DNA of 64,000 bases from Amycolatopsis acidiphila (GTDB lineage Bacteria; Actinomycetota; Actinomycetes; Mycobacteriales; Pseudonocardiaceae): NCBI RefSeq assembly GCF_021391495.1, contig NZ_CP090063.1, positions 434,001 to 498,000 on the forward strand, given 5' to 3'. Each line of letters begins with the position of its first letter. The first letter of the stretch is position 1. Below, piece by piece: positions 18,676 to 33,838 of this stretch. Below the pieces are notes generated by a model, which saw only the letters and a program-made list of their open reading frames with translations, made no database searches and was not told where the DNA came from. The translations under genes and the position numbers were made by a program.

Positions 18676-19997
18676 CACCGTTACTCGCGCAGGAACAGCT
18701 GACCAGGGCGGAGCTGCTGGCCGACGACCCGTGGTGGCTGATCCTGATCAAGGCCGTCGTGATCCTGCTGATCGGGCCGATCCTGACGATCCTGCTGATC
18801 GTCTGGGAGCGCAAGGCGGTCGGGCGGATGCAGAACCGTCCCGGCCCCAACCGCGTCGGCCCGAACGGCTACCTGCAGTCCCTCGCGGACGCGATCAAGC
18901 TGCCGTTCAAGGAACAGATCATCCCGGACACCGCCGACCGCAAGGTGTACTTCCTCGCGCCGGTGATCGCGGTGGTGCCTTCGCTGATCGCGCTGGCGGC
19001 GATCCCGTTCGGGCCCGAGGTGTCGATCTTCGGACAGCGCACGGTGCTGCAGCTGGTCGACCTGCCGGTCGGGGTGCTGGTGATCCTGGCCTGCTCGTCG
19101 GTCGGGGTCTACGGGATCGTGCTCGCGGGCTGGTCCTCGGGCTCGCCGTACCCGCTGCTGGGCGGGTTGCGCTCGGCGGCGCAGGTGATCTCCTACGAGA
19201 TCGCGATGGGCCTGTCGATCGTCGCGGTGGTGCTGTACGCGCAGTCGATGTCCACCGGGGACATCGTGAACGCGCAGGCGCACGGCTGGTACTTCTACCT
19301 GACGATCCCGAGCTTCGTGATCTACCTGATCTCGATGGTCGGCGAGACGAACCGGGCGCCGTTCGACCTGCCGGAGGCGGAGTCGGAGCTGGTCGGCGGG
19401 TTCCACACCGAGTACTCGTCGATGAAGTTCGCGATGTTCTTCCTCGCCGAGTACGTCAACATGGTGATCGTCTCGGCGTTCTGCACGACGCTGTTCCTCG
19501 GCGGCTGGATGTTCCCGTTCGTCGGGCTGGACTCGCCGCTGAACCAGGGGTGGCTGCCGCTGATCTGGTTCGCCGTCAAGCTGTTCGCGCTGCTGTTCGG
19601 GTTCATCTGGCTGCGCGGCACGCTGCCGCGGTTCCGGTACGACCAGTTCATGAAGCTGGGCTGGAAGGTCCTGGTGCCGGCGAACCTGGTGTGGATCGTC
19701 GTGGTCGTGGCGTTCCGCGCGATCCGGCAGAATGGCGGGCTGTCCACGTCCCAGGTCGTGATCGGCGTGGTCATCGTGGCCGTCGTCGCGATCGCCGTCG
19801 CGCTGCTCGTGCCGGACCGGCGCCCGCCCGAGGACGACCGCGTGCCGATCACCGGTGGCGGCTTCCCGCTGCCGCCGCTGGACTTGCACGTGCCGCAGGT
19901 GCCGGACCGCGCCGCCGCCGCGAAACGGAAGGGCCGGCGTGCGGTTCCGGCCGCCACAGAACCTGCGCAGGTTGGGAGTTCCGATGGGAATGTTTGA
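18672..19997 (+). CDS. nuoH: NADH-quinone oxidoreductase subunit H
   Basis: A 441-residue membrane subunit that completes the quinone chamber. About eight helices plus one extra are visible; conserved loops are [49 protein letters not shown] and [12 protein letters not shown] final helix ([19 protein letters not shown]) and a cytoplasmic Pro-rich tail of about 60 residues extend it beyond E. coli NuoH (325 residues), as in other actinobacteria. It overlaps nuoG by 4 bp and nuoI by 14 bp. Confidence 0.96.
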
Positions 19998-20550
19998 TCC
20001 CCTCAAGGGTTTCGGGGTCACTTTCTCGATGATGTTCAAGAAGGTGGCGACGGAGGAGTATCCGGAGATCGGTGCGCCTGCCGCGCCGCGCTACCACGGG
20101 CGGCACCAGCTCAACCGGCACCCGGACGGGCTGGAGAAGTGCGTCGGCTGCGAGCTGTGTGCGTGGGCCTGCCCGGCGGACGCGATCTTCGTCGAGGGCG
20201 GTGACAACACCGAGGACGCGCGGTACTCGCCGGGCGAGCGGTACGGCATGGACTACCAGATCAACTACCTGAGGTGCATCGGCTGCGGCCTGTGCGTCGA
20301 AGCCTGCCCCACGCGCTCCCTGACGATGATCAACTTCTACGAGATCGCCGACGACGACCGCCAGCGGCTGATCTACACCAAGGAGGACCTGCTGGCCCCG
20401 CTGCTGCCGGGCATGGAGCAGCCCCCGCACCCCATGCGCCTGGGCAACAGCGAGCAGGACTACTACGTCAACGGCCCGGAACTGGCTCGTGGCCGAGGGG
20501 TCCCCACAGGCGAGACAGTCGAGACGGCCCACGAGGAGGTCATCGGATGA
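19984..20550 (+). CDS. nuoI: NADH-quinone oxidoreductase subunit I
   Basis: A 188-residue ferredoxin-like subunit with two [4Fe-4S] clusters (N6a, N6b) bound by [12 protein letters not shown] and [12 protein letters not shown] (near residues 55-66 and 99-110). An amphipathic N-terminal helix ([12 protein letters not shown]) lies on the membrane. The C-terminal 70 residues are an actinobacterial extension. ATG 19984 overlaps nuoH. The stop overlaps, in ATGA, the start of an unrecognised repeat protein rather than nuoJ. Confidence 0.96.
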
Positions 20551-21131
20551 CCAGCTCGTTCGCTATGGCTGCCAGTGGCGGGGGCGGTGTTTCCCGGGGG
20601 CGCGGGTCGCTGGTTGTGCCCGCCGCTGGCTCGGGTGTGTCCGGGGCTCCCGGCTCGCTCGCTGTCACCGCCGCTGACTCGGGTGCTTCCCGGGCTCGCG
20701 GCTCGCTCGCGGTGCCCCCCGCTGGTGTGGCCGGCGTGTCCCGGGCTCGTGACCCGCTGGCTGTTACCGCCGCTGGCTCGGGTGTTTCCGGGGCTCGTGG
20801 CTCGCTCGCGGTGCCCCCCGCTGGCGTGGCCGGCGTGTCCCGGGCTCGTGACCCGCTGGCTGTCATCGCCGCTGGCTCGGGTGTTCCCCGAGTTCGTGGC
20901 CCGCTCGCTGTGCCCCCCGCTGGCTCAGGTGCCGGGATCGCGCTGGTTCGCGGCGGCTGGCCCGCGGCGGTCACCGCGGCATCCGGTGGCACGCAGGCCC
21001 TGATCGCGCGAGCGACGCGTGGCTCCGAAACGTCCCCCGTGGTAGCCGCTCCGCCTCCCGCAGTCGTCGGCGCACCCGCGTCGTCGGTGGCGACCGCCGC
21101 CGGCACCCAGATGGAGGTGGCCGGATGCTGA
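20547..21131 (+). CDS. Tandem-repeat protein of unknown function inside the nuo operon
   Basis: A 194-residue frame placed between nuoI and nuoJ. It starts at ATG 20547, four-base overlapped with the nuoI stop, with GAGGAGG about 7 nt upstream, and ends inside the nuoJ start region. Residues 14-127 are seven tandem 16-17-residue units of the type [17 protein letters not shown]; residues 128-194 are an Ala/Val/Pro/Thr-rich tail ending EVAGC. No signal peptide, membrane helix or known domain is apparent. No such gene belongs to the canonical nuoA-N set. The DNA repeats keep several frames open on both strands, so coding is not proven; overlap with nuoI and the strong ribosome site favour this frame. 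nuoJ has its own GGAGG within its 3' end. Confidence 0.5.
20586..20927 (+). repeat. Seven tandem 48/51-bp repeats between nuoI and nuoJ
   Basis: The array encodes seven units of 16, 16, 17, 16, 17, 16 and 16 codons. Adjacent units pair into a 99-bp higher-order repeat; the segment encoding [11 protein letters not shown] occurs twice almost base for base (about 20733 and 20832), a sign of recent unequal duplication. All unit lengths are multiples of three. Confidence 0.85.
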
Positions 21132-21937
21132 CCTCACTGGTTCTCGCACAGGCGATCGACCAGAGCACGTCGACCGGAGAGGCGGTCGCCTTCTGGATCC
21201 TCGGGCCCATCGCCCTCCTCGGCGCGCTCGGGCTGATCTTCGCCCGCAGCGCGGTCCACTCGGCACTGTTCCTCGCGATGACGATGTTCTCGCTCGCCGT
21301 GCTGTACATGGTCCAGCAGGCGCCGTTCCTGGGCTTCACCCAGATCATCGTCTACACCGGCGCGATCATGATGCTGTTCCTGTTCGTGCTGATGCTCGTC
21401 GGCAGGGAAAGCTCCGACTCGGTGGTCGAAGTCCTTCGTGGACAGCGGCTCTGGGCCGGCATCCTCGGCATCGGCATCGCGGGGCTGATCGTCACCGGGC
21501 TGCTGAACGCGCTGTCGAACGTCAGCCCGGCACCCGCGCCCAACGGCACCGCGGGCGGTCTCGGCCGGCTGGTCTTCACCACCTACCTGTTCCCGTTCGA
21601 GCTCACCTCGGCGCTGCTGATCACCGCCGCGCTCGGCGCGATGGTGCTGGCGTTCAACGAGAAGCGCGGCCGTCGCACGCAGAAGGAGCTGGTCGAGGCC
21701 CGGTTCCGCGGCGAGTACGAGCGGATCTCGCCGAAGCCAGGCCCCGGTGTCTTCGCGACCTCGCACTCGGTGACGACTCCCGCCCTGCTGCCCGACGGCA
21801 CGGTCGCGCAGGACTCGCTGTCCGCGATCATCGAGTCCACGCCGACCGCCCAGCTCGAAGCGGAGCGGAAGTTCGTGGAGGGCAAGGAGCCACACCCGGA
21901 CGCGCACGCGCTGACCGGTTCGGAGGAGAAGAAGTGA
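21125..21937 (+). CDS. nuoJ: NADH-quinone oxidoreductase subunit J
   Basis: A 270-residue membrane subunit with five helices; conserved segments are [39 protein letters not shown] (the key helix whose pi-bulge takes part in coupling) and [18 protein letters not shown] hydrophilic C-terminal tail of about 90 residues extends it past the E. coli length, as in actinobacteria. ATG 21125 has GGAGG 7 nt upstream, so translation does not depend on the preceding repeat frame even though it overlaps its last 7 bp. Confidence 0.95.
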
Positions 21938-22233
21938 CTCCCACCTACTACCTGCTGTTGTCGGCCCTGCTGTTCTCCATCGGCGCCGTCGGCGTGCTGG
22001 TGCGGCGGAACGCGATCGTCGTGTTCATGTGCATCGAACTGATGCTCAACGCCGTGAACCTGTCGCTGGTCACGTTCTCCCGCATCAACGGGAGCCTCGA
22101 CGGGCAGGTGATGGCGTTCTTCGTCATGGTCGTGGCCGCTGCCGAGGTCGTCGTGGGCCTGGCGATCATCATGTCCATCTTCCGGACCCGGCGCTCGGCC
22201 TCGGTCGACGACACGAACCTGCTCAAGTACTGA
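21934..22233 (+). CDS. nuoK: NADH-quinone oxidoreductase subunit K
   Basis: A 99-residue subunit with three helices, MrpC-like, carrying the two conserved membrane glutamates (in [12 protein letters not shown] and [12 protein letters not shown]) needed for proton transfer. GTG 21934 overlaps the nuoJ stop by four bases. Confidence 0.97.
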
Positions 22234-22250: not shown

Positions 22251-24146
22251 GTGACTGCATCATCGTGGCTGCTGGTCGCGTTCCCAGCTCTGGGCGCGCT
22301 GATCCTGCTGGCCGGCGGCAGGCGGACGGATGCGTGGGGGCACCTACTCGGTTGTCTCACCGTCATCGCGTCCTTCGTGTACGGGCTGGTGCTGTTCTTC
22401 GGCAGTGACGGCAAGCCCGCCGACACGAAGATCTATTCGTGGTTCCCTGTCGGCAACCTGTCGATCGACTTCGGCTTCCGGATCGACGCGCTTTCGCTGG
22501 TCTTCATACTGCTGATCACCGGTGTCGGCTCGCTGATCCACATCTACTCGATCGGCTACATGGCCGACGACCCCAACCGCCGCAAGTTCTTCGGCTACCT
22601 GAACCTCTTCGTCGCCTCGATGCTGGTTCTGGTGCTCGGCAACAACTTCATCGCCCTCTACCTCGGCTGGGAAGGCGTCGGTCTGGCGTCCTACCTGCTC
22701 ATCGGGTGGTACACCGACCGGCCGTCGGCCGCGACCGCCGCGAAGAAGGCGTTCCTGATGAACCGGGTCGGCGACGTCGGCCTGGCCGTGGCGATCTTCC
22801 TGATGTTCAAGTACCTCGGCACGGTCAGCTACGCCGGTGTGTTCGCCAACATCGGTAGCGCCCCGCCCGGCGTGATCACCGCGATCGCGATCCTGCTGCT
22901 GCTCGGTGCGTGCGGTAAGTCCGGCCAGTTCCCGCTGCAGGCGTGGCTTCCGGACGCGATGGAAGGCCCCACTCCGGTGTCGGCCCTGATCCACGCCGCG
23001 ACGATGGTGACCGCCGGGGTCTACCTGGTGGCCCGGTCCAACCCGATCTTCAACGAGACCGCGAGCGGACGGCTGATCGTCACCCTAGTCGGCGCGGTCA
23101 CGCTGTTGATCGGGTCCATCATCGGCTGCGCCTACGACGACATCAAGAAGGTGCTCGCCTACTCCACGGTGAGCCAGATCGGTTACATGATGCTGGCCGT
23201 CGGGCTCGGCCCGTTCGGCTACGCGCTGGGCATCATGCACCTGCTGACACACGGCTTCTTCAAGGCAGGACTCTTCCTCGGCGCCGGGTCGGTCATGCAC
23301 GGCATGAACGACGAGGTCGACATGCGGAAGTTCGGCGGGCTCTACAAGCGGATGCCGATCACCTTCGTCACCTTCGGGCTCGGCTACCTCGCACTCATCG
23401 GGTTCCCCTTCCTCTCGGGCTACTTCTCCAAGGACGCGATCATCGAGGCCGCGTTCGGCCAGGAAGGCTGGCGCGGCTGGGTGTTCGGCCTCGCCGCCAT
23501 GCTGGGCGCGGCGCTGACCGCGTTCTACATGACGCGACTGGTGCTGATGACCTTCTTCGGCAAGGAACGCTGGAAGGACATCAAGTCCACCGACGGCCGG
23601 GACTTCCACCCGCACGAGTCGCCCGCCGTGATGACCGTTCCGATGATCATCCTGGCGATCGGCTCGGTCGCAGCCGGCGCCTTCTTCTCCCTCGGAGACC
23701 GGCTCTCGACGTGGCTCATGCCCTCCCTGGGTGAGCTCGGCGAGGCCGAGCACACCGCGATCCCGCACTCGCTGATCCCATGGATCACGGTCCTCCTTTC
23801 CGCACTCGGCGTGCTCGTGGCATGGCTGGTGGTCGGGCGGCGCGACACCCCGGTCGAGCGGCCGGAGAACGTGTCCGCCGTGGTCCGGGCGGCCCGTCGC
23901 GACCTGTACGGGAACGCGCTGAACGAGTCGCTGGTCGCGACACCCGGGATGTGGCTCACCCGGTTCTCGGTCTACCTGGACAGCCGCGGCGTGGACGGCG
24001 CTGTCAACGGCCTGGCCGCCGCACTCGGTGGCGGGTCAGGACGGCTCAGGCGCCTGCAGACCGGTTTCGTCCGCTCCTACGCACTTTCGATGTTGGCCGG
24101 TTCGTTCGTGCTGGTCGCGGCCCTGCTGTTGGTGAGGTTCTCATGA
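22251..24146 (+). CDS. nuoL: NADH-quinone oxidoreductase subunit L
   Basis: The 631-residue distal antiporter-like proton pump with about 16 helices and the lateral amphipathic helix near the C-terminus. Conserved motifs are [17 protein letters not shown] (Glu essential), [20 protein letters not shown] (Lys), [16 protein letters not shown] and [17 protein letters not shown] 22251 starts 17 bp after nuoK with AGGAG upstream. The stop overlaps nuoM. Confidence 0.96.
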
Positions 24147-31104: not shown

Positions 31105-31188
31105 TCTGACTCCGCCGCGTCATGAGTGCGCCGCTTGGGTGTCACTGACAGTGGTAGTGGTGCGGTTGGGAAAGAAAGGACAGCGCGG

Positions 31189-33177
31189 ATGTCCATCTTC
31201 GGGCAGGTGTGGCTGTGGAGCGCCGCGGCCTTCGTGGTCGGTGTACTGCTGACCTGGTTGCTGCTCGTCCGGCCTGCACAGGCGCGGAGCCGTGCTCTCC
31301 AGCGCCGGCTCGAGGCGGCACAGGCTGCCGCCTCGGAGCGCCAGTCCGCGAACGCCATGCCGACGCGCACCTTCGGCAACGACTCGGCCGCGCGGCTGCA
31401 CGAGCCCACACCCGTGACCGAGCACCTTCGGCCGCTCGAGGAACCCGGGCCCGTCGCTGCGTCCGAGCCGAACTGGTACGACCGGGACAGCTTCGATGGG
31501 CGGATGCCCGACGAGTCCTCGTTCGAGCCGGAGTCGGACGCCGAGAAGACTTCAATTTTCAGGCCGCACCAGATGCCCGAGCACGGCTCGTTGTTCGACT
31601 CGAACGCTGAAATCGAGCGCGGGGCATTGTTCGACTCGAACGCGGAGGTCGAGCGGGGAGCCTTGTTCGACGCGGACGCGGAGGTCGAACGGGGGGCACC
31701 CTTCGATCCGAACGGGCCGGCCGAGCGTGGCTCGCTGTTCGGGCAGGAGGCCGAGGCCGGGCGCGGGCATCGGTACGCACCTGAGGCCGAGCCGGAGCAC
31801 GGGTCGCAGTTCGGCCAGGAGACCGCTGACGGGCGCGGGCATCGATACGCAGCTGAGGCGGACGGCGAGCAGGAGCAGCACCGTTCGCTGTTCGGGCAGG
31901 AGGCTGAGCCGGAGCGCGGGCATCGGTATGCGCCCGAGCCGGAGGCCGAGGTCGAGCGTGGCTCGCTGTTGGGGCAGGAAGGTGGGCTCGAGCGCGGGGC
32001 ATTGCTCGGGGAGCAGGCGGAACCTGAGCACGGGACGCCGTTCGGGCAGGGCGCTGGGCCGGACCATGGGGCCTCCTTCGGGCAGAAGGTAGAGCCCGAG
32101 CGTGCGGCCGCCTTCGGGCAGGAGACCGAGGTCGAGCGTGGGTCGCTGTTCGGACAGCAAGCAGAGTCCGAGCGCGGGGCGTTGCTCGGGCAGGGAGCCG
32201 GGGCCGAGGATGCGTCGTTTGCCCAGCGGGGCGAGCATGCGGCGTTCGGGCAGGGTGCCGAGACCGACGATGCACCTTTCGCACAGGGAACCGGCCGTGC
32301 GGCATTCGCGCAGGGAACCGGGGCCGGCGATGCGGCATTCGCGGAGGGAACCGAGGCCGCTGACGCGCCTTTCGGACAGGGGGCTGGGGCCGGCGATACG
32401 TCTTTCGCGCGGGGCCCCGAGGCTGACGACGTGTCTTTCGGACAGGGCACCGAGGCCGGAGATGTCTCCCATACGCGGGGCGCACCGGTCGAGGGGACGT
32501 CTTTCGCGCAGCAAAGCGCGCCCGAGGATGCTTCGTTCGGGCGAGGTGCTGAGCAGGAGCAAAGCGGCTTGGTGTTCGGGCAGCAGGCTGGGGCTGAACG
32601 TGGCCACCGGTACGCGCCCGAGCCCGAGGCCGAGCAAACTTACGGCTCGCACGCGGCTGCCGAAGACGAGCCGCCGGCTTACGCGTTCGGTGGTGGAGAA
32701 CCCGAGTCGCCGGTCGAGGAGGAGAAGGCCACCGAGACGACCGCCGTTCTGCCCAAGCGCCAGCCGCGCTCGACGCCGCCCAGCAGCTTCGAGCCGCCGC
32801 GTCCCTCGATGCGGTCGATCGAGCGTCGCGAGCCCGTGGTGGACGAAGGTGGCCGCAGTGGTTCGCTGTTCGAACCCACCGTGCGCCGCAACACTGCCCC
32901 GGGCTCCCATGCCGCGCCCGAGCCGGCGCCAGCTCCTCCGCCGCCTGCCCGCGCCCACGTGTCTGACCGCAGCGTCCCGCCTGGGCCCTTCGGCCCGGGG
33001 TCGGCGATGCCGCGTCCGGGAGGCGGCCGCCCGTCCGACGAGTTCGAGGTCAAGGCGAGCGTGACGGCTCTGCGTTACTGCACCGAGGAATCGCCGCAGT
33101 TCAACCGGATGGTGGCCGAGGTGTGGTTCCGCTCCGCTGCGGACGCCGAGCGCGTTGGATTCCGGCCGCTGGGCTGA
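31189..33177 (+). CDS. Membrane-anchored repeat protein with C-terminal sunset domain (ArfC-like variant)
   Basis: A 662-residue protein in four zones. Residues 5-27 are one transmembrane helix (VWLWSAAAFVVGVLLTWLLL) with a short outside N-terminus, then a basic, coiled-coil-like segment (residues 28-50). Residues 131-482 hold about 26 degenerate 11-12-residue units of the type ERGALFDSNAEV or EDASFGQGAEA, strongly acidic and disordered; GRGHRYAPE is interspersed four times. Residues 490-615 are Pro/Ser/Arg-rich. Residues 618-662 (VKASVTALRYCTEESPQFNR, AEVWFRSAADAERVGFRP) fit the sunset domain, used in NCBI naming for a variant of the channel accessory protein ArfC. Function unknown. ATG 31189 has AAAGGA upstream. 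Confidence 0.75.
   Translation: MSIFGQVWLWSAAAFVVGVLLTWLLLVRPAQARSRALQRRLEAAQAAASERQSANAMPTRTFGNDSAARLHEPTPVTEHLRPLEEPGPVAASEPNWYDRDSFDGRMPDESSFEPESDAEKTSIFRPHQMPEHGSLFDSNAEIERGALFDSNAEVERGALFDADAEVERGAPFDPNGPAERGSLFGQEAEAGRGHRYAPEAEPEHGSQFGQETADGRGHRYAAEADGEQEQHRSLFGQEAEPERGHRYAPEPEAEVERGSLLGQEGGLERGALLGEQAEPEHGTPFGQGAGPDHGASFGQKVEPERAAAFGQETEVERGSLFGQQAESERGALLGQGAGAEDASFAQRGEHAAFGQGAETDDAPFAQGTGRAAFAQGTGAGDAAFAEGTEAADAPFGQGAGAGDTSFARGPEADDVSFGQGTEAGDVSHTRGAPVEGTSFAQQSAPEDASFGRGAEQEQSGLVFGQQAGAERGHRYAPEPEAEQTYGSHAAAEDEPPAYAFGGGEPESPVEEEKATETTAVLPKRQPRSTPPSSFEPPRPSMRSIERREPVVDEGGRSGSLFEPTVRRNTAPGSHAAPEPAPAPPPPARAHVSDRSVPPGPFGPGSAMPRPGGGRPSDEFEVKASVTALRYCTEESPQFNRMVAEVWFRSAADAERVGFRPLG
31579..32634 (+). 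repeat. Degenerate coding minisatellite (about 26 units of 33-36 bp)
   Basis: In-frame tandem units with consensus Glu-Arg/Asp-Gly/Ala-Ser/Ala-Leu/Phe-Phe/Leu-Gly-Gln-x-Ala-Glu. The first 14 units carry ERG, the next 12 carry D/G-D-A; longer units add RGHRYAPE. Confidence 0.8.
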
Positions 33178-33249: not shown

Positions 33250-33838
33250 GCGGGGAGCGGGTTCTGGCCCGAGGCGTGGACGAGACGGGCGGTGCTGGAA
33301 GGTCGGACTGACCGGTGCTCTGACAGACGGAGTCCGGCCGCGGACTTGAAGGAACTGGGGAGACTGACCGGTGCTCTGACAGACGTGGGGTCCGGCCGCG
33401 GATTTGAAAGAACTGGGAGACGGACTTTGCGTCTGTCCATTGTGGTGGAAGGCGATGGGGCCCGGCCGCTGTTGTGAAGGACGGGTGGGGCTGACCGCCG
33501 TCGTGGAGGTTGGGTCGGTCCCCGTTCTGGAAGATGTGGGGGACCGGCCCGCCGCCTTGAAAGGCCTGGGGGACTGGCCGCCGTGGTGAAGGGTGTTGGG
33601 GGAACGGTCCCGTTCGGAAAGACGTGCGGACCGGCCCTGTGAAGGACGTCGGGGATCTGTCCACTGTGGAAGCCGACGGGACGGCCGCGGGCCTGAAGGA
33701 CGTCGGGGGTCTGTCCACTGTGGAAGCCGACGGGACGACGACGGGACGGCCGCGGGACACTAGCCCCATCGTGAAGACGTCGGAGTCCGGCCGCCGTCGC
33801 GAAACACGTGAACCGGCCCCTGCAACAAAAACGACGAA
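33250..33838. repeat. Intergenic array of degenerate about 27-bp repeats
   Basis: The 700-bp spacer between convergent genes is filled with roughly 15 units of 24-33 bp, consensus near CGGCCGCCG-n3-TGAAGGACGTGGGGGAC. Two higher-order duplications are clear: CTGACCGGTGCTCTGACAG recurs 56 bp apart (33308 and 33364) and CTGTCCACTGTGGAAGCCG recurs 54 bp apart (33657 and 33711). The array runs into the korB terminator. Frames are open on the minus strand, but Pro/Ser/Arg-rich and without codon bias, so I treat it as non-coding. Confidence 0.7.

Follow-up and report, generated by a model that had tools for sequence, protein, structure and literature searches.

Why are nuoI and nuoJ, neighbouring genes of complex I, separated by 574 bp in Amycolatopsis acidiphila, and what is selected in the reading frame that fills the gap? 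An earlier note on this DNA, made from the sequence alone, had described a 194-residue frame in the gap, consisting of seven 16-17-residue units, coupled to nuoI by ATGA and provided with a strong ribosome site. All of these features were confirmed in the window, as the complete stretch of 64,000 nucleotides that was analyzed is called here. The frame is termed the relay ORF, after the role that it probably has. The parts of the junction are as follows.

19984..20550, forward strand: nuoI, with Pfam Fer4 domains; the relay start lies partly within its stop TGA (20548-20550)
20533..20539, forward strand: GAGGAGG, Shine-Dalgarno-like sequence within the end of nuoI, 7 bases 5' of the relay ATG
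20547..20550, forward strand: ATGA overlap of relay start and nuoI stop; the NuoJ start in relatives without a relay
20547..21131, forward strand: relay ORF of 194 aa, from the ORF list; no Pfam match at E<=1 and no homologue found
20586..20931, forward strand: tandem array within the relay ORF, found by TRF; periods of 48 and 99 bp, multiples of 3
21113..21117, forward strand: GGAGG, ribosome-site-like sequence for nuoJ within the last relay codons
21125..21131, forward strand: ATGCTGA overlap of nuoJ start and relay stop, 7 nt
21125..21937, forward strand: nuoJ, 270 aa, Pfam Oxidored_q3 (E=2.2e-38)

The seven units are followed by about 70 non-repeated residues, and the repeats make up only about 60% of the frame. 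Also as noted before, the repeat lengths are multiples of three and two stretches are nearly identical: positions 20652-20825 and 20751-20924, offset by 99 bp, agree in 90.2% of 174 bp, and a single difference falls between 20700 and 20764. The codon adaptation of the relay ORF is 0.45, versus 0.72-0.79 for four nuo genes, which themselves belong to the reference set. The description of the operon as canonical with overlapping genes requires a correction, as overlap is not uniform: nuoK ends at 22233 and the nuoL ORF starts at 22251. An antisense ORF at 20540-21106 (reverse strand) was rejected as a by-product of the G+C content; the reverse frames of the 17 spacers compared below hold 8, 9 and 13 stops.

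The relay ORF matched 0 Pfam families at E<=1, gave no match at E<=0.01 in 18 other Amycolatopsis genomes and none at E<=10 in a large protein collection, of which 7995 candidates were scored. The earlier note had remarked that the conserved parts of complex I include no such protein. The relay ORF of the A. tucumanensis type gave no match at E<=1 among 7997 candidates scored from the collection. NuoJ relatives of 97-98% identity are present there, so relay ORFs are perhaps not called as genes, if the collection covers the genomes that carry them.

The nuoI-nuoJ region was taken from 19 Amycolatopsis genomes, one per species. An insert of 73-574 bp is present exactly at the junction in 16 of them; the lengths, measured from the nuoI stop to the nuoJ ATG, are 574, 430, 133, 466, 274, 532, 201 (three genomes), 409, 259, 139, 154, 73 (two genomes) and 208 bp, the ATG at 259 having been used for G002, which has an alternative at 262. 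In every one of the 16 inserts the ATGA at the nuoI stop opens a frame, and GAGGAGG or a near variant is found 5' of this start in each. A single ORF reaches the nuoJ overlap in 13 inserts; in the related 201-bp spacers of three genomes the first ORF stops early and a second, ATGA-joined ORF reaches nuoJ. The shortest peptide has 25 aa and the longest 194. The overlap between the last stop and the nuoJ start measures 7 nt (five inserts), 4 nt (two) or 1 nt (nine); stop-start distances are thus -4 from nuoI to relay and -7, -4 or -1 from relay to nuoJ, all within -8 to +10 nt. Ahead of the nuoJ ATG, 15 inserts have GGAGG and the remaining one, L012, has GGGGG. Folding around the nuoJ starts of 10 of the 16 insert loci showed only that GC-rich RNA is structured. 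At the nuoJ-nuoK junction, which served as control, a 4-nt overlap is found in 18 of 19 congeners; L020, of the A. taiwanensis type, is the only one of the 19 whose aligned nuoK start lies 40 nt past the nuoJ stop.

The earlier note, which had one genome to go by, had named absence of the array from close relatives, together with a lack of peptide evidence, as a refutation. The array itself was indeed not found in the 18 congeners, but 15 of them carry another open, joined insert in the same place. Beyond the single-genome view, the slot is hypervariable in length, its open frame is kept and its repeats differ between species; what is conserved is the relay architecture, not the peptide. No relay is present in the other three genomes (G003, G010 and G013), in which NuoJ itself starts on the nuoI stop.

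The latter arrangement prevails outside the genus. A tree of 80 named loci and the 19 congeners placed two named loci inside the genus clade, namely L026 (A. tucumanensis), the relay of which is that of G017, and L028 (A. taiwanensis), which is without a relay and has the NuoJ frame of G013. Among the 78 named loci outside the genus, 77 have NuoJ itself as the frame that begins on the nuoI stop. In 76 of these the frame extends beyond the aligned NuoJ core by 300 nt or more; that of L035 is NuoJ but broken after 35 codons. In the remaining locus, L024 (Qaidamihabitans albus), a relay of 16 codons is joined by GTGA to the upstream gene and by TGATG to the downstream one; it apparently arose independently. 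A nuoI match at E<=1e-70 was lacking in 4 of 200 family genomes. In five loci (L031 from Saccharomonospora piscinae, L116, L119, L122 and L133) the N-terminus of NuoJ carries a Met-Thr-Gly-rich extension, variable in length, at the same junction; this may reflect the same insertion hotspot, with the nuoJ frame maintained.

The filler between nuoI and nuoJ is probably a translational relay, or bridge, cistron. In the ancestor, NuoJ would have started on an ATGA (or GTGA) overlapping the nuoI stop, with the two genes coupled by termination and re-initiation. In Amycolatopsis, unrelated DNA, often tandem repeats, may have been inserted or expanded directly behind the NuoJ start codon, so that the ancestral start was captured by the insert and came to open the filler frame, and nuoJ would have gained a new start downstream that overlaps the filler stop. 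Ribosomes ending nuoI are predicted to restart on the filler, read through it, stop, and restart at once on nuoJ; while on the filler they would also keep the transcript covered. If ribosomes are handed over in this way, selection would maintain openness, both overlaps and the ribosome sites, and the order of residues would be free. Architecture, frame conservation, the nearly free sequence and the empty slot in outgroups are observed; translation, re-initiation and protection from Rho are predictions of the model. In six gene pairs from E. coli and Haloferax, coupling was nearly abolished by a gap of about 20 nt (PMC10666635), and untranslated RNA is a target of Rho (PMC12548453). An untranslated gap of 574 nt should consequently uncouple NuoJ and risk polarity, both of which an open filler would avoid. 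The poor codon adaptation speaks against the relay model, and so does the high G+C content, which makes open frames common. The relay is also dispensable, since 3 of 19 congeners do without it, and the GGAGG of nuoJ makes independent initiation of that gene possible.

In a different reading, the junction is a non-coding insertion hotspot occupied by a neutral minisatellite, the frame is open owing to high G+C and low A, and nuoJ relies on its own ribosome site. At 76% G+C, openness is unremarkable for one spacer: the A. acidiphila spacer has a probability of about 0.27 of being open in dinucleotide shuffles, and the 3-5% A in the five longest spacers (409-574 bp) by itself removes stops. Only the comparison across species lifts the relay above chance. 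Over 17 spacers (the 16 inserts and that of Qaidamihabitans; 1415 frame-0 codons), frame 0 holds 4 stops versus about 10 expected from dinucleotide shuffles. One of the four is the terminal stop of the L008 relay and three belong to the 201-bp type, in which the frame shift is rescued by the second ATGA-linked ORF; none is an early, uncompensated stop. The product of the probabilities of being open is 1.3e-4 for 12 single-ORF spacers, close sisters left out, and about 6e-4 with one spacer for each of ten alignable groups, the larger probability being taken. A length of 1 mod 3 is shared by all five spacers of one group (0.012) and by five of the six distinct spacers of a second (0.054), the sole exception being the two-ORF type, and all 16 inserts finish overlapping nuoJ. 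Openness and length terms combine to about 9e-8, a rough value since the ends share ancestry and some spacers are related; with inherited junctions in common and some sister spacers, independence is partial. Taken together, these observations make the neutral reading unlikely.

A further property of frame 0, noticed post hoc after inspection of the data, is its cost. Its amino acids are cheaper than those of the other forward frames in all seven tested spacers of at least 81 codons (4.6e-4 by chance), and Trp+Cys account for 0-4% of residues in frame 0 of the long spacers versus 4-25% in the other forward frames. Of the nine shorter spacers, three have frame 0 as the cheapest, which is the chance level. 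Physicochemical z-scores are inflated by the repeats and were left out of the evidence.

The sequence within the slot is turned over. After removal of the final 16 bases of each spacer, all 120 pairs among the 16 were compared by local alignment against 40 dinucleotide shuffles; 12 pairs scored above all 40, and joining pairs at z>=5 gave ten mutually unalignable groups. Strong matches link L009, L010 and L013 (the 201-bp type), L017 and L018 (73 bp), and L016 and L019; the 73-bp spacers partly resemble the 201-bp type, and the match of L002 and L011 is marginal (21.5 versus 19.5 for the best shuffle). L009 and L011 are 97.9% identical in their flanks, yet their spacers measure 201 and 409 bp. 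In a nuoI+nuoJ tree of 25 rows (the 19 congeners and 6 outgroups selected from the fetched loci), Amycolatopsis forms one supported clade (99/99) inside which the spacer types are mixed. TRF rows were obtained from 8 of the 16 spacers, and the periods are divisible by 3 in 31 of 32 rows, the exception being an 8-bp row in L004.

Tandem repeats misassemble easily, and an artefact of assembly had to be considered for the A. acidiphila array. The genome, however, is a single contig of 8.18 Mb, the repeat copies differ by about 10%, and inserts occupy the junction in 15 other assemblies as well, all of which leaves an artefact hardly credible.

The mycobacterial MIRUs, reportedly described by Supply et al. 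in 1997, form one dispersed family. Dispersed genomic copies, the defining test for such elements, were not found in the three genomes searched: the A. acidiphila array matches strongly only at its own site (other own-genome matches to a 110-base piece begin at E=0.06), and for the arrays of G004 and G011 the best match elsewhere in the respective genome is not a strong one (E 0.001 and 0.008). MIRU-like dispersal was rejected for these three genomes. Nor is the site occupied by one sequence family in relatives, the spacers of most species being unalignable; unlike MIRUs, most Amycolatopsis species carry their own unrelated local array at one junction. The likeness is one of architecture. PMC12548453 describes MIRUs as short repeats of many mycobacteria that are apparently mobile and may exploit the same coupling trick, with a repeat-containing insert at a coupled start codon and an ORF joined to its neighbour by a 4-nt overlap; an insert ORF at a coupled start that overlaps its neighbours is likewise found in all 16 inserts. 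It is very unlikely that a mobile family of this kind, inserting at coupled stop-start sites, fills the slot.

Whether the peptide is selected was judged from substitutions. The relay ORFs of the sister pairs L009/L010 and L017/L018 differ by 18.5 non-synonymous and 2.5 synonymous changes (pN/pS 3.2), versus 8 and 46 in nuoI+nuoJ of the same pairs (pN/pS 0.06); the contrast is significant (Fisher P=3e-9), with a tiny synonymous count of 2.5 for the relay. The relay ORFs of L009/L013 and L010/L013 gave pN/pS of 0.63-1.05, and the units of the A. acidiphila array, compared with one another, 0.71. Ratios between 0.63 and about 3 suggest that residue order in the relay is nearly unconstrained; residues may be under weak constraint in view of the tiny synonymous count and of the ratios of 0.63-1.05 and 0.71.

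These ratios also bear on the proposal of a lineage-specific complex I accessory protein or assembly factor, for which sequence or composition would matter. The location within the nuo operon, values slightly below 1 in some comparisons and the composition of the long frames (Ala+Gly+Val+Ser+Pro 71-80% in six of seven, though most are unrelated in sequence) are in its favour. A conserved sequence or domain, the mark of a complex I subunit, was not found by the Pfam and homologue searches, a homologue being absent from the matches in 18 congeners and among the scored candidates of the protein collection; there is little or no residue constraint between sister species, and the frame is missing from 3 of 19 congeners and varies from 25 to 194 aa. 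With no relative found and residues changing nearly freely, such a protein is thought quite improbable. The earlier guess of an accessory peptide thus gained no support, and those of a recent de novo frame and of a spacer tuning nuoJ translation did, the second in the sense of a spacer tied to the translation of nuoJ.

De novo genes and minisatellite (VNTR) loci are without homologues, contain low-complexity repeats and change quickly in length. The inserts share these features: no homologues were found, the slot is empty in the outgroups, and tandem arrays are present in A. acidiphila and, as TRF rows, in 8 of 16 spacers. They differ in that the frame and both junctions are preserved and the sequence is not. 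The stop-start overlaps of 4, 1 and 7 nt within one complex resemble termination-reinitiation coupling (PMC10666635, PMC6728339), which also requires a short distance. Unlike usual coupled pairs, nuoI and nuoJ can lie as far as 574 bp from each other, with a third, nearly sequence-free frame as the link. As with uORFs and nonsense-peptide ORFs (PMC12548453) and a synthetic nfORF (PMC13255528), the proposed role is delivery of ribosomes and not a useful protein; uORFs and the nfORF are short or synthetic, whereas the relays are natural, up to 194 codons long, located inside an operon and turned over between species. The insert appears to be a variant of the known relay or bridging ORF, unusual in that selection on translation seems separated from the product. 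A search of the open-licence literature found no paper recognizable as describing an insert at the nuoI-nuoJ junction.

Going beyond the relay model, it is tentatively proposed, at chances just short of even, that the junction is a natural library of sequence-free relay cistrons, in which frames are repeatedly made, replaced and lost and only openness, frame, overlaps and, in long frames, cheapness are selected. If so, new genes could be born inside operons, with the frame translated before it has any function. The act of translation would appear separated from its product, as the roughly ten unalignable fillers share only what the hand-over of ribosomes needs. The junction offers natural spacer variants of 0, 73, 139, 208, 409 and 574 bp, with which the selective value of stop-start coupling in complex I becomes directly testable. 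It may also represent a route to new translated frames in operons, and ORFs of this type may escape annotation.

To look for other relays, TRF was applied to the window and to stretches totalling 1.2 Mb, or 15%, of the A. acidiphila genome, which yielded 14 strong arrays. Ten of these, all outside the window, and the array of the relay itself were inspected with a home-made ORF scorer, which is crude and misses repeat-free relays. Seven of the ten overlap a coding-like frame (score >=60), two (277438 in the first segment, 338325 in the second) coincide with ORFs of low score, and one, of period 74, overlaps no coding-like frame; no second relay bridging coupled genes was seen among these ten in the 1.2 Mb with this crude scorer. 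At 277370-278005 of G000:C1, an ORF of 211 aa, whose start lies 25 bases past another ORF on the same strand, contains eight short repeats of the unit PTGAWDPN. Three further TRF arrays are located in the window, at 31577, 32311 and 33306. A 683-aa ORF (31126-33177, forward strand) behind a polyprenyl synthetase gene, for which no Pfam family reaches the cut-off, has an apparent N-terminal membrane segment followed by long acidic Glu/Gly/Phe-rich repeats in units of 36 and 66-72 bp. The tandem repeat at 33306-33425 has a period of 58, which is not a multiple of three, and a 27-bp repeat is found at 33637-33734.
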